From positions 1-49,732 of the forward strand of contig CANHOA010000025.1 in assembly GCA_947462255.1 (NCBI GenBank): a stretch of 49,732 bases of DNA, written 5' to 3'. Positions 3 through 12,214 of the stretch are shown here, piece by piece. The stretch's first letter is position 1, and every line of letters starts with the position of its first letter. A model generated the notes under the pieces. The model saw only the letters and a list, made by a program, of their open reading frames with translations. It was not told the origin of the DNA and searched no databases. The DNA comes from Flavobacteriales bacterium. Lineage in GTDB: Bacteria > Bacteroidota > Bacteroidia > Flavobacteriales_D > Crocinitomicaceae. The position numbers and the translations under genes were made by a program.

Positions 3-3000
3 CGCAAGGGCAACAAACTGACATTACCGGATAAGACCGATAGCTACCGCTATTGGATGGAGCGCAGCAAGGAATATGCGCAGGGTCATTTATTGGAGCG
101 CCAGCGTCAGTATTGGGCACAACAGCAAATAGCTAAGACGGACAGGATACCTGTACAAGACCCTAATGGCTCAAACACCTTTGAGGTAAGTAGGCGCGTA
201 GGTTTTGTGTTGAGTAAGGAAGAGACAGCCTTTGTTCAACAAGGGATGAATGCAAGGAACAAGGTAGAGACGAATGCGATACTGTTGGCGTCTTTATCAA
301 GAGCGCTGAAAAGCACCTTTGGTGTAGAACAGATACGGGTCTTGTTAGAAGGTCACGGACGAGAAGAGTATTTAGAGAAGACGGATATCAGCCGCACGGT
401 AGGTTGGTTTACGAGTATGTACCCATTTGTTCTCAGTGGCAAACAAGAGAGTGTAGAGTCGGTATTGCTGTTACAAGATGGCTTAAGCCAAGTGCCTGAT
501 AAGGGAGTGGGTTATGGGCTACTCAGATACCTGAGCAATGAACCGCTATCAGCAATGGAGGATGCGCAAGTGACGTTCAATTACCTGGGTGATTTTACGC
601 GAGAAGAAAAAGAGCACAATGACTCAACATCTAAACAAGACAGCACTAATAACACCAACAGCACGACTAACAGTACGTTTAGTTATTCGGAGTATGGTCA
701 TGGTCAGGATATAGACTCGAACTTAAGCAGAGAGAGCGAACTGGAGGTAAGTGGACAGAGTGAGGATGGGTGTTTACAGATGAGCATACAGTACAGTTCA
801 GCACGTATGGATGCAGATCAAATGCAGTATCTAGCAGAGCAATATAAAGTAGAATTACTGCAACTGAGTGAGGAACTAATTCAATACAATAAAACGATAC
901 AGCTTCCCGGAAGTTTTACATACAAGGGACTTAGTCTCGATCAGATCGATTCATTAACAAATGAATATGGAACGATAGAGGATGTTTACCGTTTGAGTCC
1001 GATGCAACAGGGCTTGTATTACCATGCGATGTCAGAGCCTAAAAGCCATGCTTATTTTGAGCAGTTTGGCTATGGGTTAAAGGGAGACTTAGATGTAACT
1101 AAGTTGGAGCAGGCGTATCGTACACTCATAGCACGTCATGGCGTATTGCGCACAGTATTTAGAAATGATTTAGCAGAAGAACCTTTACAAGTAGTATTGA
1201 AGGAAGGGATTGTTGATTTTAGGTATGAGGATATAAGAGACCAAGACGAAAATGAACAGCAGGGATATATCAAAGCATTACGAGAAGCGGATAAAGACGA
1301 AGGCTTTGATTTAAGTGCAGGTCCATTAGTTCGTTTGATTATTATTCAACGCTCCCAAAACAGTTTTTACCAGATATGGAGTAACCACCATTTGAACTTA
1401 GATGGTTGGAGTACCAATGCGGTATTGTACGAATTTGATGTACTTTACAAGTCATTCATAGCAGACAAGAAAGCAGACTTACAAACATTAGAACCTTATA
1501 GCCAATACATTGCTTGGCTAGATGGAATAGATCATAAAAAGAGCAGATCTTATTGGAATCAATACCTAAATGATTATGATAGTAAAGCGACACTTCCTTT
1601 TGATAGAGAAGATGTAACACGCAGTGCAAAATACACACCAAAGGATTATGAGTTTTGGTTGAGCGAGGACTTAAGCAATAACCTCAATGCAATAGCCCAG
1701 AAAGAAAAGACAACCTTAAACACCATCATCCAGAGTGCTTGGGGAATCCTGCTCAGTAGATACAATAATACGCAAGATGTAGTGTTTGGATCGGTGGTGT
1801 CAGGAAGACCATCAGCGCTTAAGGGGATTCAAGAGATGATAGGTATCTTCATCAACACGATGCCTCAAAGAATAAAATATACGGAGCAAACTACCTTTAA
1901 AGAGTTGTTGGAAAGTACGCAGCAATCGTTTATATCAGGAGAACCACACCATCATTTGAATTTAGCAGAGATACAGCATGAAAGTGAGCTAGGGGCGAAC
2001 CTGATAGACCATTTGGTGGTATTTGAGAACTATCCAATATCGGGGCAATCAGAGGACACTAATACAGCCACTCAAGTTCAAGCACAAAAAGGAGAGATAG
2101 AAATTGAAGGAGATACAGTAGAAGTTTTTGAGCAGATGAATTATGACTTCACGCTGATGGCAGCACCTGAAGACAAGCTGTTTTTTAGGATGAAGTACAA
2201 TGGAGCAAAGTACAGCGAAGGTTTTATTAAGAGACTAGAAGGACAATGGAATCAGTTACTGGGTGAGATTGCAAAGAGCACTGAGACTTCTATTGTTGAA
2301 TACGAAATTTTAACGAAGGAAGAAAAGACCTATTTACTAGAGACTTTAAACGACAATCAGGTTGACTATCCCACGGATAAGACGATTGTTGACTTGTTTG
2401 AGGAACAGGTTGCGAAGACCCCGAATGCAGTAGCCATTAAGTTCAAGGATACTGAACTAACCTATAGGGAGCTCAATGAAAAATCGAATCAATTAGCACA
2501 TTACCTGATATCCAACTACAACATCCAAGCAGATGATTTGGTTGGTATAGAGTTAGAGCGTAGTGAGTGGATGGTGATCGGAATACTAGCAATCATTAAA
2601 TCTGGAGGCGCTTATATTCCAATAGACCCGGAGTATCCGGAGCAGAGAAAGGATTACTTGATAGAAAATAGTGGGTGTAATTTCGTAATAAATGATGGTG
2701 TTATCAACGCTTTTAAAAATGCATCAAACCATAATGTAGCTGAGGTTAATATCAAGAATAAGGGCTTGTTGTGTTGTATCTACACTTCCGGTTCTACAGG
2801 CTTGCCAAAAGGCGTCATGATTAGCCATCAGAATTTGATGAACCGAATACATTGGATGTGGACGAAGTACCCATTTCAGGCAGATGAAGTTACGGCAATA
2901 AAAACTACAATTGGTTTTGTAGATCATTTATGGGAGCTGTTTGGTTCGCTATTAGGAGGCGTAAAAAGTGTCATTATTTCTCAGGATAATGTCAAAGATA

Positions 3001-6000
3001 TAGAACGATTTGCCGGTATAATAGCTTCTGAAAAAATTACCAGATTGGTTTTAGTACCTTCTCTATTAAAGTTCATATTAACCCAACAGGAGATTAGAAA
3101 CCAATTTTCATCTGTTAAACTTTGGACAGCAAGTGGAGAGGTATTGCCGGTTGATTTGGTGGCCTTGTTTTATAAATCGTTTGGAACGGCAAGATTGCTC
3201 AATATCTACGGATCCACCGAAGTAACGGCAGATGTTACTTGTTTTGATACGAGTACCATGATTTTGGAAGATGAAAATGCCACCCTTGAATTGTTTAAAG
3301 GAGTCAATGAAGAAGATAAGTATGCCCAAGATTTAATGGAGGACATCATGTCAAATCCGGTTCATAATGGAAACTTTGATGCTTCAGCGATTTATAAGGA
3401 TGATGATAGCGACAATGAGTTTTTAAGTCAATATCTCGATGAAATAGACAATGTGGTCAAAAAGAATATCATCAATGTAAACTCGAGGTATTTTATTGGC
3501 CATATGACAGGCCCCATTCCTCCATTCTTATACCACGTTCATCAGAAAATGGTTCAGATGAACCAAAATCAGGTGAAATTGGAAACCAGTGGAATAGGTA
3601 CTTCATTGGAACAAAAGGTGGTGGGCTTCTTTCATAAAGAAGTCTTTGAAGAGACTAAGGAATTCTACCTGGAATATGAAACAAACAAGGAAACATCTCT
3701 TGGTCTCATTACAAGTGGGGGAACTTTGTGCAACATCACAGCGCTTCAATTAGCATTGTCAAAAGCCTTGAATAAATTATTGCTCTCTGAGGGTAAAACA
3801 TTACAGGAAATAGGATTGCTTGAGGCTTTAAAAATAGCAGATTTTGAAGGTGCTGTAATTTTAGCATCATCCTTACACCATTACAGTATAGAGAAAGCGG
3901 CAAAATTGATGGGATTAGGAACGAATGCAGTGATTCCGTTTTCATCTTCTAATATAGGTAATCTCAAAAACTTAATTTCAGATTTAAAACAGAATAAGAA
4001 ATTAATTATTGCCCTAGTTGGTATAGCCGGAACAACAGAGTCGGGTGAGGTAGATCATTTGGAAGCATTAAGTAATTTATGTAAACAGTATGCCATCCAT
4101 TATCACGTAGATGCAGCTTTTGGCGGGGCATTTGTTTTGTCGAGTCATCGCGATAAATTAAAAGGGATAAGGGAAGCAGATAGTGTCACGATTTGTGGAC
4201 ATAAACAGCTTTATACTCCAGTAGGTTGCAGTTTGGTGTTGTTTAAATCACCGGATTTGGTAAGGTTTTCTGAACACAATGCACGCTATCAGGCAAGAAA
4301 AGGAAGTTCTGATTTAGGTAAATTCACGAATGAAGGCACCCGTCCGTTTACGGCTCTAACCTTGGATGCAGTCAGAAAGCTCCATCTAAAGGGAGCCTAC
4401 AAGGAAGTGCTAGACAACCTGCTGGATAAAGCCAATTGGATGTATCGTTTTTTACGACAATTTGATTTCATTGAGGTGTATGCACTACCAACGATGAATA
4501 TTTTATTGTATCGTTTTATTCCTGAAGTATATAGTTCAAAATGTAAATATAATACCTTGTCGGAGGAGGATCAGGCAGTAATTAATGAAGTCAACAATCA
4601 ACTCCAACGGGAGCAATTCAAGGAAGGAAAATTCTTTGTGTCTCAAACAAGATTAAAACTGAATGGAGAGCCCGAAAAGGTTTGGCTAAGAGTAGTACTT
4701 ATGAATCCGTTTACCTCCAAAAAAGATATTCAACAAGTGGTATTTGATCAAATTCAAAAGCTTAATTTCACCCAAAATCCGGAATATTCCATCTATAGTG
4801 TATCTGTACCCATTGGAAAAGCAATTGCGAATACTAAGGTTTTAATCATAGATGGCCGCAGAAAATTACAGACCTTAGGAGCTGTTGGCGAAATTTGCAT
4901 TGTTGGTGATGCGGTTGGGATGGGATATTTACATGGACAATCTGGGGATAAGGGATACATCAAAAATCCTTTTGACGAATCTCAACAAATGTTTTGTACA
5001 GGTGATATGGGGCGTTTTATTGGAGATGGAAACATAGTTTATGAAGGCCGCCGAGATCAGCAAATTAAAATTTTGGGTAATAGGGTTAATACTTCCGAGT
5101 TGCGAAAAGTTGCATTGGAGGTAAAAGGTGTCCGTGATGTTTTTGTACTGAATCACAAGGAACAGCTAATCCTATTTATAGAAGGTAATGAGGAAGCTAA
5201 AGACACAATCCAGAAAAAAATAAAAACAACTTTGCCTCAATTTATGCAGCCTGCGAAAGTGTTGTTTTTAGATCACTTCATTTTGAATGCCAATGGTAAA
5301 TTGGATAAGCGCGAAATGATGGAATGGATGGATCAGCATCAAACAACGGATAATAATGTTTTTGAAGGAACTTGGTTAGACGGACAACTTCAGAAGATAT
5401 GGTCTAAAGTATTGAAAAAAGACGAAAAAGAAATTCCATTCAATAAAGACTTCTTTGAGTTGGGTGGTGATAGTTTAAAGCTGATGTCGTTAACAGCGCA
5501 GATAAACAAAACATTTGATAGGCAATTCCGATTCCGTGATTTATTGAGTGCCTCCTCCATTCAGCAAATGAGGGAACTAATGAATATAGGTAATTCATCG
5601 GATGAAGCGGTCTTTTACCGGCTGAATGCCTATGTACCTAACAAGCCGCAATTATTGCTGTTGCCTCCCTCCAACGGAGAAGGTTTGGTGTATAAAAAGT
5701 TGGCAAAATTACTAGATCAGCAGGTGGAAATATGGACAGTTGATTATCGAAAAGGGGATGGAACTAATAAGGTAGATATTCAAAGTTATGCGAAAGAGTT
5801 AGTTATGATTTGGAAACAAGAACAGGGGAATCGGAAATTGATAATTGGTGGATATTCACTTGGGTTCAGAGTAGCTTATCACATGACGTTGAAAATGGAA
5901 CACCAAATAGATAGGGTGATAAATATCGATGGAATGTTGTATAAAAACGCAGCGGAAGAGGAACAAATCAATCAAACCATTATAGCTACTGAACAATCAC

Positions 6001-6269
6001 AAGCTGTAAGTGAAACATTACAGGTGCAAGAAAGTAAAAAGCATAAAGATTTACAGCTCGAAAAATGGTTTGTCAATGATTATTTTGTCAACCCATTAAA
6101 AGTTGAAGCTCAGCATTTTATTGGTAAAGAAAGTCCAGTGTTGAATTTTATACCTGAATTTGTATCTTGCAAGAACAACGTGATTCATATCCAAGGAAAC
6201 CACGAAAATATTTTGGAAATAGAAGAGAATTTGTTAGTAATTATAAACATGTCGTTAAACTTTAAATAG
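3..6269 (+). CDS. NRPS, C-terminal part: (E)-C-A[PLP decarboxylase]-PCP-TE
   Basis: This is the 3' part of a nonribosomal peptide synthetase; the frame is open from the first bases, so the gene begins upstream (the Met at 57 is internal). Residues are counted from that Met. The end of an epimerization domain comes first (SYRYW, LLEGHGREE, SRTVGWFTSMYP, NYLGDF). A condensation domain follows at about 310-760, with HHLNLDG at 444-450. The adenylation domain starts near 770, with A3 TSGSTGLPKG at 910 and A5 NIYGSTE at 1049. It is interrupted from about 1065 to 1581 by a PLP-dependent decarboxylase domain, then resumes at A6 (VPIGKAIANTK) and runs to NGKLDK (Lys1748). A carrier domain (GGDS, Ser1806) and a thioesterase (GYSLG, Ser1934) end the protein. 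The mapped specificity code V-D-W-V-T-S-I-A-D-K points to beta-alanine. The E domain before the C domain implies a D-configured donor. The TE makes this the last module. Confidence is very high for the domains and moderate for the substrate. Confidence 0.96.
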   Translation, partial: RKGNKLTLPDKTDSYRYWMERSKEYAQGHLLERQRQYWAQQQIAKTDRIPVQDPNGSNTFEVSRRVGFVLSKEETAFVQQGMNARNKVETNAILLASLSRALKSTFGVEQIRVLLEGHGREEYLEKTDISRTVGWFTSMYPFVLSGKQESVESVLLLQDGLSQVPDKGVGYGLLRYLSNEPLSAMEDAQVTFNYLGDFTREEKEHNDSTSKQDSTNNTNSTTNSTFSYSEYGHGQDIDSNLSRESELEVSGQSEDGCLQMSIQYSSARMDADQMQYLAEQYKVELLQLSEELIQYNKTIQLPGSFTYKGLSLDQIDSLTNEYGTIEDVYRLSPMQQGLYYHAMSEPKSHAYFEQFGYGLKGDLDVTKLEQAYRTLIARHGVLRTVFRNDLAEEPLQVVLKEGIVDFRYEDIRDQDENEQQGYIKALREADKDEGFDLSAGPLVRLIIIQRSQNSFYQIWSNHHLNLDGWSTNAVLYEFDVLYKSFIADKKADLQTLEPYSQYIAWLDGIDHKKSRSYWNQYLNDYDSKATLPFDREDVTRSAKYTPKDYEFWLSEDLSNNLNAIAQKEKTTLNTIIQSAWGILLSRYNNTQDVVFGSVVSGRPSALKGIQEMIGIFINTMPQRIKYTEQTTFKELLESTQQSFISGEPHHHLNLAEIQHESELGANLIDHLVVFENYPISGQSEDTNTATQVQAQKGEIEIEGDTVEVFEQMNYDFTLMAAPEDKLFFRMKYNGAKYSEGFIKRLEGQWNQLLGEIAKSTETSIVEYEILTKEEKTYLLETLNDNQVDYPTDKTIVDLFEEQVAKTPNAVAIKFKDTELTYRELNEKSNQLAHYLISNYNIQADDLVGIELERSEWMVIGILAIIKSGGAYIPIDPEYPEQRKDYLIENSGCNFVINDGVINAFKNASNHNVAEVNIKNKGLLCCIYTSGSTGLPKGVMISHQNLMNRIHWMWTKYPFQADEVTAIKTTIGFVDHLWELFGSLLGGVKSVIISQDNVKDIERFAGIIASEKITRLVLVPSLLKFILTQQEIRNQFSSVKLWTASGEVLPVDLVALFYKSFGTARLLNIYGSTEVTADVTCFDTSTMILEDENATLELFKGVNEEDKYAQDLMEDIMSNPVHNGNFDASAIYKDDDSDNEFLSQYLDEIDNVVKKNIINVNSRYFIGHMTGPIPPFLYHVHQKMVQMNQNQVKLETSGIGTSLEQKVVGFFHKEVFEETKEFYLEYETNKETSLGLITSGGTLCNITALQLALSKALNKLLLSEGKTLQEIGLLEALKIADFEGAVILASSLHHYSIEKAAKLMGLGTNAVIPFSSSNIGNLKNLISDLKQNKKLIIALVGIAGTTESGEVDHLEALSNLCKQYAIHYHVDAAFGGAFVLSSHRDKLKGIREADSVTICGHKQLYTPVGCSLVLFKSPDLVRFSEHNARYQARKGSSDLGKFTNEGTRPFTALTLDAVRKLHLKGAYKEVLDNLLDKANWMYRFLRQFDFIEVYALPTMNILLYRFIPEVYSSKCKYNTLSEEDQAVINEVNNQLQREQFKEGKFFVSQTRLKLNGEPEKVWLRVVLMNPFTSKKDIQQVVFDQIQKLNFTQNPEYSIYSVSVPIGKAIANTKVLIIDGRRKLQTLGAVGEICIVGDAVGMGYLHGQSGDKGYIKNPFDESQQMFCTGDMGRFIGDGNIVYEGRRDQQIKILGNRVNTSELRKVALEVKGVRDVFVLNHKEQLILFIEGNEEAKDTIQKKIKTTLPQFMQPAKVLFLDHFILNANGKLDKREMMEWMDQHQTTDNNVFEGTWLDGQLQKIWSKVLKKDEKEIPFNKDFFELGGDSLKLMSLTAQINKTFDRQFRFRDLLSASSIQQMRELMNIGNSSDEAVFYRLNAYVPNKPQLLLLPPSNGEGLVYKKLAKLLDQQVEIWTVDYRKGDGTNKVDIQSYAKELVMIWKQEQGNRKLIIGGYSLGFRVAYHMTLKMEHQIDRVINIDGMLYKNAAEEEQINQTIIATEQSQAVSETLQVQESKKHKDLQLEKWFVNDYFVNPLKVEAQHFIGKESPVLNFIPEFVSCKNNVIHIQGNHENILEIEENLLVIINMSLNFK
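3249..4799 (+). other. PanP-like aspartate decarboxylase domain embedded in the NRPS A domain
   Basis: About 517 in-frame residues interrupt the adenylation domain between A5 and A6. They match the group II PLP decarboxylase fold over its full length: the entry motif FIGHMTGPIP, the SGGTLCNITAL cofactor-phosphate loop near 3714, IALVGIAGTTESG, HVDAAFGG with the PLP-nitrogen Asp at 4110-4112, and SVTICGHKQLYTP with the Schiff-base Lys at 4203-4205. The last motif and the overall order resemble PanP, the PLP-dependent aspartate 1-decarboxylase that replaces PanD in Vibrio, more than generic glutamate decarboxylases (known family, recalled from memory). All catalytic residues are present, so the domain is probably active. 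The likely reaction is L-aspartate to beta-alanine plus CO2. Glutamate or 2,4-diaminobutyrate decarboxylation cannot be excluded by eye. Confidence 0.88.
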
Positions 6270-6411: not shown

Positions 6412-7062
6412 ATGAAAAATAAAATAAATGATTTTGAATTCAATAACACCGATATTTTCTTCACTACCGATAAACACATCTTCCCAATTTCTCAATTAGC
6501 TCTACCCCCCAATCACCAATTCTCCCCAAAGCGTCTGGCCGATTTCTCCACAGGGCGTTATTGCGCAATAAAAGCATTGGAGCAATTAGGAATACAAGAT
6601 GTTATAATCCCTATGGGTGAGGACAGGGCTCCCATTTGGCCAGAAGGAATTGTAGGCTCTATAAGTCATTGCGATAGTTTAACAGGTGCCATTGTTGCCA
6701 AAAGCGCAGACCATGTTTCGCTGGGCTTGGATGTTGAGGAAATTGGTAGGGTAACCCCTGATTTGTGGGATTTGGTGTTTACTGTAAACGAAAAGAACTA
6801 TTTATCCAGGTTTTCGGATGAAGATAAACTCGTTCAAAGCACGGCCATTTTTTCTATTAAAGAAGCTTTTTACAAGTTTCAACATCCAATAACGAAAACA
6901 TTTCTCGACTTTTTGGATGTTGAAGTATCCTTGCCCTCCATGGATAAAGTGGTTGTTATCTCTGATGAGATTTCATTAGATTCAATGATTAGAAAAAATA
7001 AAATAAAATATTTTTTTGATAATGATTGTGTGATATCAATCATAATACAAGCTGAAGTATAA
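6412..7062 (+). CDS. 4'-phosphopantetheinyl transferase (Sfp/EntD type)
   Basis: This enzyme transfers the phosphopantetheine arm of coenzyme A to the serine of carrier proteins, turning apo-NRPS into the active holo form. At 216 residues it has the usual length. Visible motifs are SISHCDSLTGA (residues about 82-92), the magnesium-binding GLDVEEIGR near 103-111, and FSIKEAFYK near 155-163, in which the Lys and Glu are catalytic. The spacing and the ISHC form look more like the EntD branch than Sfp. It lies 142 nt downstream of the NRPS on the same strand, with only the gene remnant between, so its natural target is probably the carrier domain (Ser codon at 5472) and those upstream. The next gene is convergent, so this gene ends the cluster on this side. 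Confidence 0.93.
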   Translation: MKNKINDFEFNNTDIFFTTDKHIFPISQLALPPNHQFSPKRLADFSTGRYCAIKALEQLGIQDVIIPMGEDRAPIWPEGIVGSISHCDSLTGAIVAKSADHVSLGLDVEEIGRVTPDLWDLVFTVNEKNYLSRFSDEDKLVQSTAIFSIKEAFYKFQHPITKTFLDFLDVEVSLPSMDKVVVISDEISLDSMIRKNKIKYFFDNDCVISIIIQAEV

Positions 7063-7105: not shown

Positions 7106-8476
7106 TTACTTAATAATCATCACATCCACTCGGCGATTGTCTTGACGTCCTAATGGTGTGTCGTTGGACGTTTTTGGTTGTGTTTCACCAAAATGCTTTA
7201 TGATGATTCGGTCAGTATTTATGCCGTTCATTATCAGGAAGTCTTTAACGGCATTTACCCTGTTTTTTGACAAATCAACATTATATACCTCTGAACCTAG
7301 TGCATCGGTATGTCCTTCTAAGGAAAGTTTGAATGTTGGGTTGGCTTGGAGTAAATTTACCATGCTTTCTAATTCACCAAAACTTTCTTTTTTCACTAAT
7401 GATTTATCAAATTCAAATAAAATGGTCTTCGATAAGGAACCTGAAAAAACTTCTTTTTCAGGAACGTTTTTCGTTATGGAATTATCAATGATAATGGTAT
7501 CTGTTTTTGTGATAAATACAGTATCGATTTTCAATAAGTCTTTGTATATAATTCGTTCAACGGTATCTATTTTTGTTTTTACGATGTTTATTTTTTCTTT
7601 TTTCTGTTTGCAAAATTGCATGGTCATAATTAATTCATGAGAACCACTGCTGTAGGATGCCATATTTGCCATGGGCGCTTCATAGGCATAACCAAACATA
7701 AATTTATCTTTTACAGTAATGCCAATTCGTCCAATTAATCCCACTTGTGTGCGTAATCCGATGCCAACATTAAGGAAATTTTTGTAAGTCGCACTGGTGT
7801 TAATATCAGCTTGAAGTACGTGGTTTATTCCTTTTAAAAATACGGACGGTTTAAGTGACCAATTCGAAGCTATGTTAATGTTGTAAGCGGCATATCCTGT
7901 GAAGTGTCTTCTTAATCCATACCCTTGAGAATTCGTAAACCCAAAATTAGAATAGGAATGAATAAGTTGTTTCGTTGCTGCTGCCAGTTCTAAATTTTGA
8001 AATTGATAAACTAATCCTAGATCTGTATTTAATGCTCCTGCTGCTTGATTACCACCAATTACAATGGGGTCAATCGGATCAAAAACAATTGCTGAGGATG
8101 GATTTAATCGATATTGATTATACCCTATAGATAATCCAGCTCGTAATCGATGTTCTCCAAACTTCATTCCGTATGAAAGGGTTCCCATGCCAGAAAATTG
8201 TTGTAGCATTCCAATTTTATCAATTAACAATTGACCTCCTAAACCAAAACGATTTCCCAAGGACGTATTAACGGTAATCATACTAGTTGCAGGTGCTCCA
8301 TCTACTTTTACCCATTGATTTAAATGAGATATAGCTAAATGTGTACAGCTATTTATACCAGCATAGGCAGGATTTACAGCGTACATATTATACCCATAAA
8401 CCGTAGTTTGTGGCATTTGTTGTGCGTAAGAAATCATTGAAATACTTACCCAGAAAATGAGGATGAATTTTTTCAT
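7106..8476 (-). CDS. PorP/SprF-family outer-membrane protein with C-terminal OmpA domain
   Basis: The protein has 456 residues and a signal peptide (ending near SYAQ). Residues about 20-290 are a PorP/SprF-type beta-barrel, recognised by the early YNMYAVNPAYAG motif, alternating strands and GLGGQLLIDKIG. A Lys/Thr/Ile-rich linker follows, then an OmpA/MotB peptidoglycan-binding domain at about 345-456 (FEFDKSLVKKES, LEGHTDALGS, NVDLSKNRVNAV, RRVDVMI). PorP/SprF proteins pair with particular T9SS type B cargo and help to secrete them or hold them at the surface (known from Flavobacterium SprF/SprB). The gene starts 6 nt after the stop of the giant type B protein upstream, so they are almost certainly co-transcribed partners. 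The OmpA domain would tie the complex to the cell wall. Confidence 0.9.
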   Translation of the reverse strand: MKKFILIFWVSISMISYAQQMPQTTVYGYNMYAVNPAYAGINSCTHLAISHLNQWVKVDGAPATSMITVNTSLGNRFGLGGQLLIDKIGMLQQFSGMGTLSYGMKFGEHRLRAGLSIGYNQYRLNPSSAIVFDPIDPIVIGGNQAAGALNTDLGLVYQFQNLELAAATKQLIHSYSNFGFTNSQGYGLRRHFTGYAAYNINIASNWSLKPSVFLKGINHVLQADINTSATYKNFLNVGIGLRTQVGLIGRIGITVKDKFMFGYAYEAPMANMASYSSGSHELIMTMQFCKQKKEKINIVKTKIDTVERIIYKDLLKIDTVFITKTDTIIIDNSITKNVPEKEVFSGSLSKTILFEFDKSLVKKESFGELESMVNLLQANPTFKLSLEGHTDALGSEVYNVDLSKNRVNAVKDFLIMNGINTDRIIIKHFGETQPKTSNDTPLGRQDNRRVDVMIIK

Positions 8477-8482
8477 GATTGC

Positions 8483-11400
8483 TTATTTTTTTAATCGAAG
8501 TAAATTAATAGAACCGCTGTAGTCTTTATCTTGACATTTTATAGAATAGAAGTAGACACCATCAGGTAAGGCATCGCCATCTTTTGTACCATCCCATTCG
8601 TTATGGTAATCAGTTGTTTCATAAATTGGTTGACCCCATCGATTGTAGATTTTTACAGAACAACCCATGATTAAGTTGGCGTCCTCGATTTGCCAAGTAT
8701 CGTTTTGACCATCGCCATTTGGTGTTAGTAGGTTGCTGATTTCAAAATCTCCTGCACACGTTATGATTGAAAGTTCTAAGGTAAGGATAGAATCACATCC
8801 GCTAGCATCACTCAATGTGTCATGATAAATTCCACTCTGATTCAGTTGCTGTCCTCCAAAATTATAGAAGCCATCTTCACATATGTTTTCAGATATGTAT
8901 TGAACAGGGGCTGCGTCAATTAGTAATGCTAAAATGACTAAAGAATCACAACCTGTCGCTGTCGTTAAGGTGTCTGTGTATAGTCCATCTTGAGTCAACA
9001 ATGTGCCGTTCAAATTATAGGAACTTCCTGCACAAATATGAATGGTTTGTTGGCTCGTAATTATTGGATTAAAGAAAATCCCCGTTGTCACAATGCTGTC
9101 ACATCCATTACCACTATTCAAGGTGTCTACGTAAATTCCCGGATTTGAATAGGTGTTTCCATTAATGGTATACGATCCTCCGACGCACAAATTAATTTGT
9201 TGATTTACTGGAATTACAGCTGGATAGAGTGATAAGTTGGTTATGATAATACTATCACAGCCTAGCGGTGTGAGCAAACTGTCAATGTAAATCCCTGCAC
9301 TTGATTGATTTACTCCGCCCAGTAAAACGGATGTGCCCGCACAAATTGAAAGCATGTTGTTGTTTGTGGAAGGCGTACAAGGTGTGACACAAGCCGATGC
9401 ATCGAAGGTATAGTTTTGAGAACAAGAGCCATCTCCAATATTTACGGTGTAAATTCCTGCAATCGCACCGGTGTAATTCAAGGTCTGTCCGGCATTGATA
9501 CTTCCCGATTGTGCTGTAGCGCCCAATGGATTTATAATAGAATAATTATAAGGCATACCACTAAATCCGTTCATTCCTCCGGTAGCAGAGAAGGTAACCG
9601 TACAGGTATTGTTATCATAATTAAAGTTTGCGGTCAATGACTGCAAGAAAACGATCGGAATTCCTTCCTCTAATGTTGATGTTGGACAATCGAATGAGCC
9701 CCAAGAAACAGGTTGGTCAGCTGCAGGCGAAAGGTAGTATAGTGTATTATAAGATGGATTTCCAAAAGTACCTGAGCCATTTCCGTTGTTCACAAAAGAA
9801 GTGGTGCTTTGTATGGAATCGATAAAGGTGAAACCAGAATTATAAACTGGGTTGGGAACAGGTAATGTTTGGTGAATGACATATCCTCCAGAGATACAGC
9901 TAGGGAAAGAAGCGGTAGATTGACCAATTCCATTCAGCAAGATTCCTGGTGTTAGGGTGTCGCCATAGCAAACGTATAAGGTATCTCCATTGATAACGTC
10001 TGCATAACCTCCGTTGGAACTGTTTGCAAAAATATCTCCAGCGTCGCTCGTTAATTCTTGTATGTACTCAATAATGTACTGACCTACGTCACCCGGTGAA
10101 CCGCCATCAATTTGAATGGCATATATTTTCCCTGAATCCAAGCAGCAGATATTCTCTTGATGTCCGTTGAAATTAGCAGTTCCAGTCACTATTGGTGTAA
10201 TGGCAGGTGTTGATTGGGTTCCATTGACGGTGTAGGTAGCAGGACCCAAGCCTCCATAACATAAGTTTCCGTTGAGTAATTCAAAGACATTAAAGCGTAA
10301 CAAGTTCATACCAACGTAGGCACGAATGCTCAATTCTACAGCGCCTGATGGAGGCCCAATAAAGTAATGCCAAACAGTTTGGTCGGCACGATTCGCTTGA
10401 TTAGGGTGCAGTGGAGGTTCTCCCGCTAGGTATTCACGGCAAGCCAAGACATTAGAGCCAGCGGCAGCTTGAAAGGTGGGATTCGTCCCTGCTGGGATAA
10501 CTGGAACTTGGTATAATGTATCTAATAAGGTTAAACATAAAATGTCATTGCCAGGCGCATTAACCGCTGGATTTGAAATACTTGGATCAAACACCCACGA
10601 TTTTATGGATTGACCACTTAATGGCGTGATGGCATCTGAGGGATCTACCATTCCAAAATATTTATATCCAGGTTCTAAACAGGTTCCATTCACAATAGCA
10701 CTGGGGTCTCCACCCAGAAAACTATTGGTGCCACCTTCGTCAGAGGCAATGAATTTTAAATTTGAACATAAGTAATCATTGGGAACACCTGGTGCGAATT
10801 GCTTGTCGTAACCAAACAATGCCCCGCTTTCACCATACAATGCACTTTGGTAGTCGGCTTCGAAATAGATTCTTCCAGAATTTGGAGCAGTAAAATTGAG
10901 CCATACACTTTCGTTCATTACTGGATTTCCGCTAGCTACGTGTTGGTAGTCGTAGGCATGGTACTGCTCTGGATTAGCACTTACATGTTGTTGGCCTGTT
11001 TCCCCTGAATTGTTTCCACCATCTAAGGCACATCCAAAGTCTAAGGTTATGGATTGTGTGCTGTTTTGTGCTGAGGAGATAGCGGTGGTATTGACACTCA
11101 CCGAGCTTGAAAGACAAGGAATATCTTCAATATCGGGTGCACTGCCTCCCAAGCCATTAATGCGCATCTGGAAATAGCCGTTGTCATTTAAATCGTCCAC
11201 AGTGGTTTGAACGAAATAGGTTTCTCCTGGGATTAATTTTTCATACGAAATAAAGGGAATGGGATCGCAGGCATCAAACGTAATTTCTGCCTCGGGATCA
11301 ATACCAAGTAAATCAATTCCGTCAGAAAAATCGATGTGCGAGAGGTATTCGAATTTATTTTTAAGGGTTTGACCCGTTACTGGATGAATACCATGAGTGC

Positions 11401-12214
11401 AATTTAAGCCGTCTGCGGCATGATAAACTTGAAAATAGGTTCCAATGTCTGTTCCACTCAAGTCTGTTGTAATTTCAACGGATCCAGAAGCCGGAGCCAC
11501 AAATTTGGCCCACTGAGATCCAGCATTTTGAATGTCACCTGCTGCGGGTTCATTGACCTCAAGGGTGGCATTACAAAATCCAAAGGTGTAGGTATTGTTG
11601 ATGGCCAAGGTTTGTGCAGCGCAAATATTATCAGGTAAATAATTTACAACTAAAGGTAAGCGCTCTACTTGTAAATTGATTACATAGGACTGGTTGCATC
11701 CACCATCTTGACTATTCGCTTGAAAAGAGTAATTGAGTATACCGACAGCCAATGGGACCGGCATCGTTACGTTTTGCATATTGGTTTCACCATCGGTTAA
11801 ACCTAAAATATCGTAGTTGCCCGCGTCATCATTTTCATAAGCTTCCCATGCCAAATTGATACTGCTTGGCACATCATTTACGCAAAGGTAGTTGTGGCTA
11901 AAAAACAAACCGTTATTGGGTGAGAAAGTCCCGCCCGGTGTTGCCATGGTGTAAGGACCATTGTTATTATTTTTATACCCGTAATTGAATCCAAAAATTC
12001 CAAAAAGGGCAGGATTGTTATTGGTTAATCCCAGGGTGTTATCTGTCCCTGTAAATTCCCAAACGAAATCACTATTGCCTAAGAATAATCCATCGCAATC
12101 CACATTGGACAGCGTCTGAACTGAAAGGACTTTAACCTCAATTGTAGCTTGAGCGGACATTTGGTTAAAGCAGGCAATAAGAATGGAAAAGGAAAGTAGT
12201 ACTTTTTTAATCAT
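8483..12214 (-). CDS. Giant T9SS type B cargo protein with GCDS-type repeats
   Basis: This surface or secreted protein has 1243 residues and a signal peptide (ending near MSAQ). The first roughly 1000 residues are a large beta-rich region with even Cys, Asn and Gly content and no enzyme motif that I recognise. One segment (VEITTDLSGTDIGTYFQVYHA) resembles bacterial pre-peptidase or adhesive beta-sandwiches. About four repeats of roughly 50 residues follow (pattern IC.G.SY..NG.....G.Y.DTL....GCDSI). The final 85 or so residues are a gliding-motility-associated C-terminal domain (LLTPNGDGQNDTW, IYNRWG, WDGT.DG..LPDGVYFY), the type B signal for T9SS export. It is a tandem paralogue of the next gene and lies directly upstream of its likely PorP/SprF partner. 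An adhesin-like role is inferred. Confidence 0.88.
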   Translation of the reverse strand: MIKKVLLSFSILIACFNQMSAQATIEVKVLSVQTLSNVDCDGLFLGNSDFVWEFTGTDNTLGLTNNNPALFGIFGFNYGYKNNNNGPYTMATPGGTFSPNNGLFFSHNYLCVNDVPSSINLAWEAYENDDAGNYDILGLTDGETNMQNVTMPVPLAVGILNYSFQANSQDGGCNQSYVINLQVERLPLVVNYLPDNICAAQTLAINNTYTFGFCNATLEVNEPAAGDIQNAGSQWAKFVAPASGSVEITTDLSGTDIGTYFQVYHAADGLNCTHGIHPVTGQTLKNKFEYLSHIDFSDGIDLLGIDPEAEITFDACDPIPFISYEKLIPGETYFVQTTVDDLNDNGYFQMRINGLGGSAPDIEDIPCLSSSVSVNTTAISSAQNSTQSITLDFGCALDGGNNSGETGQQHVSANPEQYHAYDYQHVASGNPVMNESVWLNFTAPNSGRIYFEADYQSALYGESGALFGYDKQFAPGVPNDYLCSNLKFIASDEGGTNSFLGGDPSAIVNGTCLEPGYKYFGMVDPSDAITPLSGQSIKSWVFDPSISNPAVNAPGNDILCLTLLDTLYQVPVIPAGTNPTFQAAAGSNVLACREYLAGEPPLHPNQANRADQTVWHYFIGPPSGAVELSIRAYVGMNLLRFNVFELLNGNLCYGGLGPATYTVNGTQSTPAITPIVTGTANFNGHQENICCLDSGKIYAIQIDGGSPGDVGQYIIEYIQELTSDAGDIFANSSNGGYADVINGDTLYVCYGDTLTPGILLNGIGQSTASFPSCISGGYVIHQTLPVPNPVYNSGFTFIDSIQSTTSFVNNGNGSGTFGNPSYNTLYYLSPAADQPVSWGSFDCPTSTLEEGIPIVFLQSLTANFNYDNNTCTVTFSATGGMNGFSGMPYNYSIINPLGATAQSGSINAGQTLNYTGAIAGIYTVNIGDGSCSQNYTFDASACVTPCTPSTNNNMLSICAGTSVLLGGVNQSSAGIYIDSLLTPLGCDSIIITNLSLYPAVIPVNQQINLCVGGSYTINGNTYSNPGIYVDTLNSGNGCDSIVTTGIFFNPIITSQQTIHICAGSSYNLNGTLLTQDGLYTDTLTTATGCDSLVILALLIDAAPVQYISENICEDGFYNFGGQQLNQSGIYHDTLSDASGCDSILTLELSIITCAGDFEISNLLTPNGDGQNDTWQIEDANLIMGCSVKIYNRWGQPIYETTDYHNEWDGTKDGDALPDGVYFYSIKCQDKDYSGSINLLRLKK
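8755..9352 (-). repeat. Four roughly 50-residue GCDSI repeats (coding)
   Basis: On the minus strand this stretch encodes four units of the form IC.G..Y..NG.....G.Y.DTL....GCDSI. The GCDS codons recur near 8790, 8943, 9094 and 9250, about 150 nt apart. The units differ clearly in DNA sequence, so this is an old protein-level repeat and not a recent minisatellite. Paired cysteines in each unit suggest disulphide-stabilised stalk modules before the sorting domain. Confidence 0.8.

Follow-up and report, generated by a model that had tools for sequence, protein, structure and literature searches.

A PanP-like group II PLP decarboxylase is inserted into the adenylation (A) domain of an NRPS encoded at one end of a 49,732-nucleotide stretch of DNA from a Flavobacteriales bacterium (the window). 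To judge from its sequence, the insert likely makes beta-alanine from free L-aspartate, and the surrounding A domain would activate and load the product. The protein is a new member of the JamL-type layout, which is known but uncharacterised.

Organization of the NRPS gene

The NRPS gene fragment (3..6269, forward strand, as are all window features below) is a single stop-free frame of 2088 residues, in which residue i corresponds to bases 3i to 3i+2. The frame is open at its 5' end because base 1 of the window is the end of the contig. The domain order is E/C, C, A1-A5, insert, A6-A10, PCP and TE, and the host of the insert is the last module of the NRPS. The first domain (6..926) belongs to the condensation superfamily and is of the epimerization type, with its C-terminal part present in the fragment (PF00668, profile positions 163-453); TIGR01720 (para261) matches residues 156-318 with 101.3 bits. 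It is followed by a condensation domain (978..2336; PF00668, residues 326-778). The N-terminal part of the A domain, A1-A5, spans 2397..3287; its AMP-binding match (PF00501, residues 799-1084) covers positions 1-331 of the 384 in the profile. The C-terminal part, A6-A10 (4812..5357), was located by its motifs and predicted A fold and contains the A10 lysine, residue 1766. The peptidyl carrier domain (5385..5570; PF00550 PP-binding, residues 1795-1856) carries the motif LGGDSLK. The thioesterase domain (5649..6266), with the motif GYSLG, has a weak match to PF00975, limited to residues 1883-1968 (29.9 bits, the cut-off being 26.4; profile positions 2-90 of 226). A 4'-phosphopantetheinyl transferase (6412..7062; PF17837 and PF01648) is encoded downstream and could activate the carrier domain of the NRPS.

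The earlier note had described an unbroken frame through A1-A5, a decarboxylase, A6-A10, PCP and TE, and both the Pfam profiles and the placement of the motifs bear this out. The profile search that it proposed returned AMP-binding, PF00282 and the PanP-family model TIGR03799, with the decarboxylase nested. The A core motifs are intact on both sides of the insert: the A5 motif YGSTEVTAD lies at 3207-3233, the A7 motif TGD starts at 4998 and the A10 motif NGKLDK lies at 5292-5309. The lysine of A3, the glutamate of A5 and the aspartate of A7 are kept in 79/79 embedded A domains. In the structure prediction the A fold is likewise intact, running continuously across the insert, and a decarboxylase fold is predicted alongside it.

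The inserted decarboxylase

The insert is about 508 residues long (about 1096-1603, bases about 3288-4811) and lies between A5 and A6. Its boundaries were taken from an alignment to an uninterrupted A domain with the same code from Chitinophaga (L008). The Pyridoxal_deC profile (PF00282) matches residues 1185-1494 with 103 bits, compared to a Pfam cut-off of 27, and the TIGR03799 match spans residues 1135-1584. The characteristic motifs SGGT (from 3714), HVDAAFGG (4104-4127) and GHKQLY (4197-4214, with the lysine codon at 4203-4205) are all present. Five catalytic residues complete the assignment to the group II PLP decarboxylases. His1293 (3879..3881) presumably stacks on the PLP ring, Asp1370 of HVDAAFGG (4110..4112) is taken to face the pyridine nitrogen, and Lys1401 of GHKQLY (4203..4205) is taken to form the Schiff base. 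Tyr1429 (4287..4289) is the catalytic-loop tyrosine, which in group II decarboxylases fits plain decarboxylation. Arg1563 (4689..4691) would, we presume, bind the alpha-carboxylate of the substrate. Each of the five is invariant in both sets of embedded sequences that were scored (79/79 and 50/50, a few proteins appearing twice among the 79).

This conservation bears on the idea that the insert is idle, a dimerisation or structural element devoid of catalysis. Group II decarboxylases form dimers that share their active sites, which would suit such a role, and one low-confidence segment of the model (residues 1426-1434, pLDDT below 50) spans the catalytic loop and includes Tyr1429. With all five residues intact in every embedded row, however, an idle insert is hardly credible.

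Relationship to PanP

PanP is a PLP-dependent aspartate 1-decarboxylase, a free enzyme that supplies CoA synthesis in bacteria that lack panD. The earlier note had named it as the closest decarboxylase type, and the profile scores agree: the insert reaches 373.5 bits with TIGR03799, compared to about 105 bits with the next decarboxylase models listed, those of MfnA and diaminobutyrate decarboxylase. PanP is thus the best-matching family; the insert has the catalytic residues in common with it and is about 37-38% identical to Vibrio PanP. Nevertheless, its score falls short of the PanP equivalog cut-off of 606.1 bits, and therefore aspartate is only an inferred substrate. Three embedded relatives score 467.5-514 and Vibrio PanP itself 980.6. 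At such a score another acidic substrate (3-methyl-aspartate, 3-hydroxy-aspartate or cysteine sulfinate) is conceivable.

The genomic setting also differs from that of PanP. The genome has adjacent panC and panD genes (C3:45373-46188 and C3:46238-46576), and the insert is the sole match to PF00282 in the genome at an E-value of 0.001. The presence of panC and panD means that the insert is not the pantothenate supply of this bacterium, which rules out a role as the beta-alanine source for CoA in a genome without panD. The suggestion that the module may serve to avoid dependence on the pantothenate pathway is likewise not supported.

The adenylation code and its pairing with the decarboxylase

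The code of the A domain is VDWVTSIADK (V973, D974, W977, V1016, T1042, S1044, I1068, A1076 and D1077, at positions that we assigned by PheA numbering). It is identical at 8/10 positions to VDWVISLADK, a putative reference code for beta-alanine activation, and the resemblance claimed earlier would hold in this sense. Five A-domain code strings were looked for in the text of the literature searched, and no occurrence was found. The pattern [VI]D.....AD is present in 78/79 and 46/50 embedded sequences. As a control, a looser A[DN] pattern was found in 4/26 uninterrupted A domains of the relatives' proteins (the alignment of 10/26 being incomplete). Three of the four belong to proteins fused to the same decarboxylase, and the fourth is in fact an interrupted domain that is truncated. 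The deviating codes are VGVTFSIAG in L021, IGD in three Chitinophaga proteins and a code beginning with ADW in P0242.

This type of code accompanies the decarboxylase (DC) in five arrangements, namely the nested one, three different fusions at an end, and a separate gene. The end fusions are DC-C-A-T (P0064, VDWVISLAN), DC-A-T (P0069, VDWVTSLAD) and A-DC (P0070, VDAVVSLAD); among the other fused proteins, the code of P0063 is a near miss and that of P0072 could not be read. In Chitinophaga sp. YR573 (L008) a separate decarboxylase gene (L008:9905-11380) lies near an uninterrupted A domain with the same nine residues, VDWVTSIAD. Among the stand-alone decarboxylase loci with an NRPS A or C domain in the fetched flanks, a code-type A domain was found in 6/19 only, including the locus of Chitinophaga sp. 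YR573; the other 13/19 show none, one of these being L046, where the A domain is cut and its code unreadable. The Pedobacter loci L071 and L082 contain a second, uninterrupted code-type A domain near the interrupted one, so nesting cannot be required.

The code also bears on the possibility that the insert decarboxylates 3-methyl-aspartate, 3-hydroxy-aspartate or cysteine sulfinate, so that beta-aminoisobutyrate, isoserine or a hypotaurine-like unit would be loaded by the module. The score below the PanP cut-off is consistent with this, as are the variability of code positions 239 and 299 across the embedded family and the occurrence of a CmlA-type beta-hydroxylase in two related clusters. CmlA enzymes, however, act on carrier-bound alpha-amino acids, and the client of this one could be another module (A1, with a Thr-like code). 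Furthermore, the code departs from the reference beta-alanine code at 2/10 positions only, and a different substrate appears improbable.

For beta-alanine, the reaction would start with decarboxylation of free L-aspartate by the PanP-like insert. The host A domain would then activate the beta-alanine and load it onto the adjacent carrier domain, and dimerisation of the decarboxylase may pair two NRPS chains. The earlier proposal of production and loading in cis is thus favored by the likeness to PanP and by the code pairing; its aspartate part is unproven, given 373.5 bits against 606.1.

The order of the two steps could also be the reverse. In such an on-carrier route the A domain would activate the beta-carboxyl of aspartate and the insert would decarboxylate the iso-aspartyl thioester, with no free beta-alanine formed; a nested enzyme would sit near the carrier, as this route would favor. 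However, the insert belongs to PF00282 and is nearest to PanP, whereas decarboxylases of the VinO/BtrK type have another PLP fold. The Chitinophaga locus, where the decarboxylase has its own gene close to an A domain sharing the nine code residues, also speaks against the route, although taken alone it is compatible with either. Precedents for on-carrier decarboxylation are vicenistatin VinN/VinO and bolagladin BolO/BolN, and feeding of beta-alanine gave no rescue of a bolN mutant (PMC7756342, in part). The methyltransferase inserts of other A domains work after loading as well (PMC11355689, in part). The pocket, on the other hand, has A330 and D331 in place of the basic K330/R331 of VinN, which binds 3-methyl-aspartate (PMC11253843, in part). 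Altogether, the on-carrier route is unlikely.

Distribution and evolution of the nested module

Two architecture searches yielded 129 proteins, in 114 of which the decarboxylase is nested between the same A-domain halves. Six proteins from other sources (P0001-P0006) are 70-82% identical over the region and have the same nested order, and L004 does likewise at 82%. This recurrence in other assemblies rules out an assembly join, the objection that the earlier note had raised against its own reading, and the insertion is genuine. The 114 proteins also dispose of the idea that the layout is unique to the source genome. In the taxonomic family of the source bacterium, the only other member found to have a high-scoring match (G060:C33, a 3731-residue frame on a 23,028-base contig) resembles P0243 from Crocinitomix sp., so that the family may be Crocinitomicaceae. 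Two proteins for which no PF00282 is listed, P0248 and P0249, were considered as relatives with an empty site, but each is truncated at its end and includes the first part of the insert, so they do not qualify. Cyanobacterial members of the embedded family share the a5-a6 insertion point.

In a tree of 52 chosen A-domain rows (200 bootstrap trees), all 36 interrupted A domains and three uninterrupted ones are separated from the 13 others with a support of 98/98. The embedded label needs 3 changes on this tree (5-95% bootstrap range 3-3), compared to 9, of which 8 are forced, on the decarboxylase tree. The A domain and the decarboxylase of Chitinophaga each fall near P0009 and P0010. From these sequence trees, the history of the A-domain lineage looks like one old insertion with two later losses, and one of the two loss lineages seems to have kept the decarboxylase as a separate gene. 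Several independent insertions are less likely in view of the 3 changes on the A-domain tree, although the decarboxylase tree is less tidy.

A broader interpretation can be offered tentatively. The modules may constitute a distinct self-supplying NRPS class, in which a homodimeric decarboxylase, having entered a beta-alanine A domain once, at its a5-a6 loop, makes the substrate within the domain that consumes it, ties two chains together and channels its product. If this is true, the separate, end-fused, nested and released layouts would record a metabolic enzyme entering and leaving an assembly line.

Comparison with known systems

The product of the JamL pathway, jamaicamide, contains a unit derived from beta-alanine. 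JamL of Lyngbya majuscula (UniProt Q6E7J8) was reported in 2013 to have PF00282 embedded in an A domain, in the order C-HxxPF-A-PLP4-A-CP, with a function that was 'not clarified' (PMC3870968, in part). The statement in the earlier note that no A domain with a decarboxylase insert was known therefore does not hold: the layout was already in print, and 114 proteins share it here. The present protein likewise has PF00282 between two AMP-binding halves, followed by a carrier, in one frame. JamL differs in being a hybrid PKS-NRPS whose published layout lists no TE, and the likeness drawn here is one of layout. For this kind of insert, whose role was unclarified in 2013, there are now more than 100 relatives, a conserved insertion point and a predicted substrate. 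The Chitinophaga cluster, in which the decarboxylase is encoded apart from a neighboring A domain that shares the code residues, is a natural control. These features make the make-and-load idea directly testable and point to a self-supplying beta-alanine module.

The catalogued interrupted A domains, such as those of TioS, TioN, KtzH and McyA, have methyltransferase, oxidase or ketoreductase inserts at a8-a9 or a2-a3 (PMC11355689, in part). The present insert, a PF00282 enzyme at a5-a6, falls outside these classes. In the parts of the interrupted-A-domain reviews that were searched no decarboxylase insert is named, although the categories of Lundy 2020 may include the class; a5-a6 is likewise absent as an insertion site from the portions of the NRPS-engineering literature searched. 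The methyltransferases among them modify an amino acid that is already loaded (PMC11355689, in part), whereas the insert described here likely makes the substrate beforehand.

The closest chemical parallels, as far as the published excerpts go, are VinN/VinL/VinO of vicenistatin and BolO/BolC/BolN of bolagladin, in which a beta-alanine-type unit also arises through PLP-dependent decarboxylation of aspartate or methyl-aspartate. There, however, the work is divided among separate proteins and the decarboxylation takes place on the carrier.

Architecture of the interrupted module

Base 1 of the window is a contig edge and lies inside an NRPS gene, the frame of which (3..6269, 2088 aa) is stop-free throughout. 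The protein starts with the end part of an epimerization-type C domain, which is followed by a C domain and by an adenylation (A) domain divided into an N part (residues 799-1095) and a C part (residues 1604-1785). The insert, a PLP decarboxylase, occupies residues about 1096-1603 and sits after core motif A5 and before A6. A carrier (residues 1795-1856) and a thioesterase (TE, a weak match from residue 1883) complete the chain. The codon of the insert's Lys is at 4203, as the earlier note had it, and the motif placement agrees. A phosphopantetheinyl transferase gene (6412-7062) is positioned downstream of the NRPS gene, and genes for type IX secretion proteins lie beyond it on the opposite strand. 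Window 7106-12214, directly past the NRPS and transferase genes, holds a PorP/SprF-OmpA gene and a gene for a CHU_C (type IX secretion signal) protein, also on the opposite strand.

The insert scores 103 bits against PF00282. The resemblance to PanP proposed earlier is borne out in that TIGR03799 is the top NCBIfam model (373.5 bits, insert searched alone), but the score stays below the cut-off of 606.1, and by that rule the insert is classified as PanP-like rather than PanP. On the same model Vibrio PanP scores 980.6, Nostoc PanP 606.7, three other embedded decarboxylases 467.5-514 and three free ones, encoded by separate genes, 398-430. The MfnA and diaminobutyrate decarboxylase models reach about 105 bits each in a scan of the whole protein. 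The closest solved structure is 8zpi (131.3 bits), an entry named diaminobutyrate transaminase; PLP decarboxylases rank below it.

A second NRPS piece, comprising A1, a carrier, a C domain and the start of A2, is found at the end of contig C26 of the same genome (2-3331, minus strand) and is probably the start (5' part) of the window's NRPS, with an assembly gap between them. The A1 motifs read DFWNIGMVH, a Thr-type code. Over 273 bases the start of this A1 shares 80.6% identity with window 2367-2639, a similarity suggestive of recombination between A domains or of their duplication. Farther upstream, C26 carries two genes that match no Pfam family, one with a weak resemblance to the WelO5 oxygenase (25.5 bits, below the cut-off of 27), another of 546 aa that likewise has no match, and a gene for a CmlA-type diiron beta-hydroxylase (8593-10203, minus strand; PF18456; PDB 8a90, 450.5 bits).

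Distribution and conservation

With the insert as query, 7991 candidate proteins of 0.55-1.75 times 2088 aa were scored, resulting in 75 matches. The script classified 64 of these as nested, with the decarboxylase between two halves of one A domain, and five as fused outside the A domain; the rest comprised three where it recognised neither an A nor a C domain (P0073 among them being listed with PF00501), two short matches and one half (P0029, a cut protein). A second search with a longer cyanobacterial query gave 79 proteins. Of the 54 not already found by the first, 50 are nested and two other, and in the remaining two (P0248 and P0249) no decarboxylase was scored since both proteins are cut. 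The database search suggested in the earlier note thus located the A-decarboxylase-A architecture in 114 of 129 proteins, both searches together. Among the first-search proteins, P0068 (1381 aa), assigned by name to the chytrid fungus Chytriomyces hyalinus, is listed with an MBOAT domain (PF03062) in addition to the decarboxylase.

Among proteins of the insert's size there were 1166 matches, the best 120 of which are 114 free, three half and three short. GTDB genomes contain at least 574 relatives; the best 80 were fetched and comprise 15 nested and 65 free genes. By the taxa as titled, the nested genes among these 80 belong to Flavobacteriales, Chitinophagaceae, Saprospiraceae and Pedobacter within Bacteroidota, and elsewhere to cyanobacteria, SAR324, Thiotrichaceae, Chromatiaceae and another gammaproteobacterium. 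Of these nested loci, L021 and L067, both gammaproteobacterial, have free A-decarboxylase-A frames of 1064 and 1113 aa, within which C and carrier domains were not matched. One PanP-like gene (L073) is on a contig labelled Akkermansia muciniphila, a label that may be wrong because the isolate name resembles that of locus L004 and looks environmental.

At E 0.001, 94 of 200 family genomes match, the score being high only in the window's own genome and in one other (G060), with the next-best match at E 1.1e-24 or weaker. In the phylum sample a single genome of 395, again the window's own, matches at E 1e-60. This rarity suggests that the nested gene is patchily distributed and was probably acquired horizontally.

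The decarboxylases of all 79 nested sequences (64 proteins and 15 loci, some proteins being counted twice) have the Lys, Asp, His, loop Tyr and carboxylate Arg, and all 79 A domains have the A3 Lys, A5 Glu, A7 Asp and one A8 Arg; the A10 Lys is present in 78, the remaining row being cut. The five catalytic residues of the decarboxylase are also found in each of the 50 further nested proteins from the second search. A5 and the PLP-Asp motif are 298-318 residues apart in first-search proteins with an A5 pattern ahead of the decarboxylase, the two outliers being P0051 (271, because the pattern caught a second motif-like string) and the fused P0070 (991).

In PheA numbering, the alignment gives VDWVTSIADK as the code of the window's A domain; the beta-alanine code is VDWVISLADK. 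The pattern [VI]D.....AD occurs in 78 of the 79 nested sequences (the exception, L021, reads VGVTFSIAG) and in 46 of the 50 from the second search, the exceptions being P0232-P0234 (IGD) and P0242 (ADW). Four of 26 uninterrupted A domains in first-search proteins (10 incompletely aligned) fit a looser A[DN] pattern: that of P0029, the cut nested protein, and those of P0064, P0069 and P0070, which have the same decarboxylase fused at the protein end. The code of the fused P0063, VDWWVTL-D, is a near miss. Five A-domain code strings had no match in the literature searched.

Evolution of the insertion

All rows of the A-domain trees come from loci or proteins bearing a decarboxylase. In the broad tree (insert left out, 115 rows, quick method, midpoint root) 64 interrupted rows and three uninterrupted ones (L008, L071_2412 and L082_2373) cluster together (SH-aLRT 95). 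Sister to this cluster (95) are 11 uninterrupted A domains, all from loci or proteins that also bear a decarboxylase, whether as a separate gene, as a fusion or within a different module. The uninterrupted and interrupted Pedobacter A domains are sister groups in the trees. In the careful tree of 52 chosen rows a 39-against-13 split has support of 98/98, and the interrupted label needs three changes (5-95% range of 200 bootstrap trees, 3-3); the interrupted rows alone never form one group in these 200 trees. One insertion and two losses would be the simplest account of the A-domain trees.

The A domain of L008, the Chitinophaga sp. YR573 locus, is beside those of P0009 and P0010 in the careful tree (92/85), and its decarboxylase groups with those of these two proteins in a set of nine rows (SH-aLRT 97) within the decarboxylase tree, which has 122 chosen rows; the decarboxylase thus appears to have become separated from its A domain in this lineage. 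On that tree the embedded label requires nine changes, eight of them forced; thus either the decarboxylases moved more often than is apparent from the A domains, or the 'free' proteins include fragments. In Pedobacter, L071 2412 and L082 2373 are uninterrupted A domains that have this code type and lie close to an interrupted A domain, as if one module had been duplicated and had then lost or gained the insert.

Proposed function

The Chitinophaga sp. YR573 locus is a natural control, in which the decarboxylase is separate and the A domain has the window's nine code residues. The A domain of its 2961-aa NRPS is uninterrupted (nine N-terminal code residues VDWVTSIAD), and the NRPS is followed downstream by a 314-aa nucleotidyltransferase-family gene, the free 491-aa decarboxylase and a CmlA-type beta-hydroxylase, to which the CmlA gene of C26 is 56% identical. 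In all, 19 loci combine a free decarboxylase with NRPS A or C domains encoded within the flanking sequence retrieved (10 kb at most); a twentieth, L069, with only an acyl-CoA-synthetase-like match, was left out by eye. An A domain of the window's code type is present in six (L008, L017, L026, L029, L042 and L077) and absent in 13, one of which, L046, has an unreadable cut A domain. The association of decarboxylase and code is therefore weaker for free genes.

We adopt the reading that the module makes and loads its own substrate, the steps being proposed from the anatomy and these associations. The insert would decarboxylate free L-Asp to beta-alanine, which the host A domain would adenylate and load onto the carrier; the upstream C domain would join it to the chain, and the TE would release a product with beta-alanine as its last residue. 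The main rival, in which Asp is loaded via its beta-carboxyl and then decarboxylated on the carrier, has precedent in VinN/VinO and bolagladin (PMC7756342). The pocket loop of VinN carries two basic key residues, K330 and R331 (PMC11253843), whereas the window's A domain has A and D at those positions, which argues against this rival. As to the pantothenate pathway, which had been brought into the earlier interpretation, the genome carries panC and panD, and the insert is therefore likely a dedicated supply, not a vitamin route. Production of beta-alanine by a nested decarboxylase may also feed a neighbouring A domain, given the uninterrupted same-code domain near the interrupted one in Pedobacter, which argues against strict channelling.

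Comparison with known systems

The M, Ox and KR inserts of A domains are described at sites a8-a9 or a2-a3 in PMC11355689, and a8-a9 is likewise named in PMC8949500; unlike these, the window's insert is at a5-a6. The earlier note's view that no A domain is known with a decarboxylase insert has to be given up, because JamL of the jamaicamide cluster was described in 2013 as C-HxxPF-A-PLP4-A-CP, with a PF00282 domain 'embedded within the adenylation domain' and a function stated as not clarified (PMC3870968). This family was called the rarest there, with two instances. The kind is thus already known by one member, JamL, and the window's NRPS is a further one; the family is much larger than in that paper. 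Among the literature matches listed, no functional study of such an insert was found. The proposal that the module makes and loads beta-alanine is attractive and now testable, its surprise being lessened by the JamL precedent. P0205 and P0211, which are PKS-NRPS hybrids by the Pfam domains listed for them (KS, AT, KR) with a nested decarboxylase, have the layout reported for JamL.
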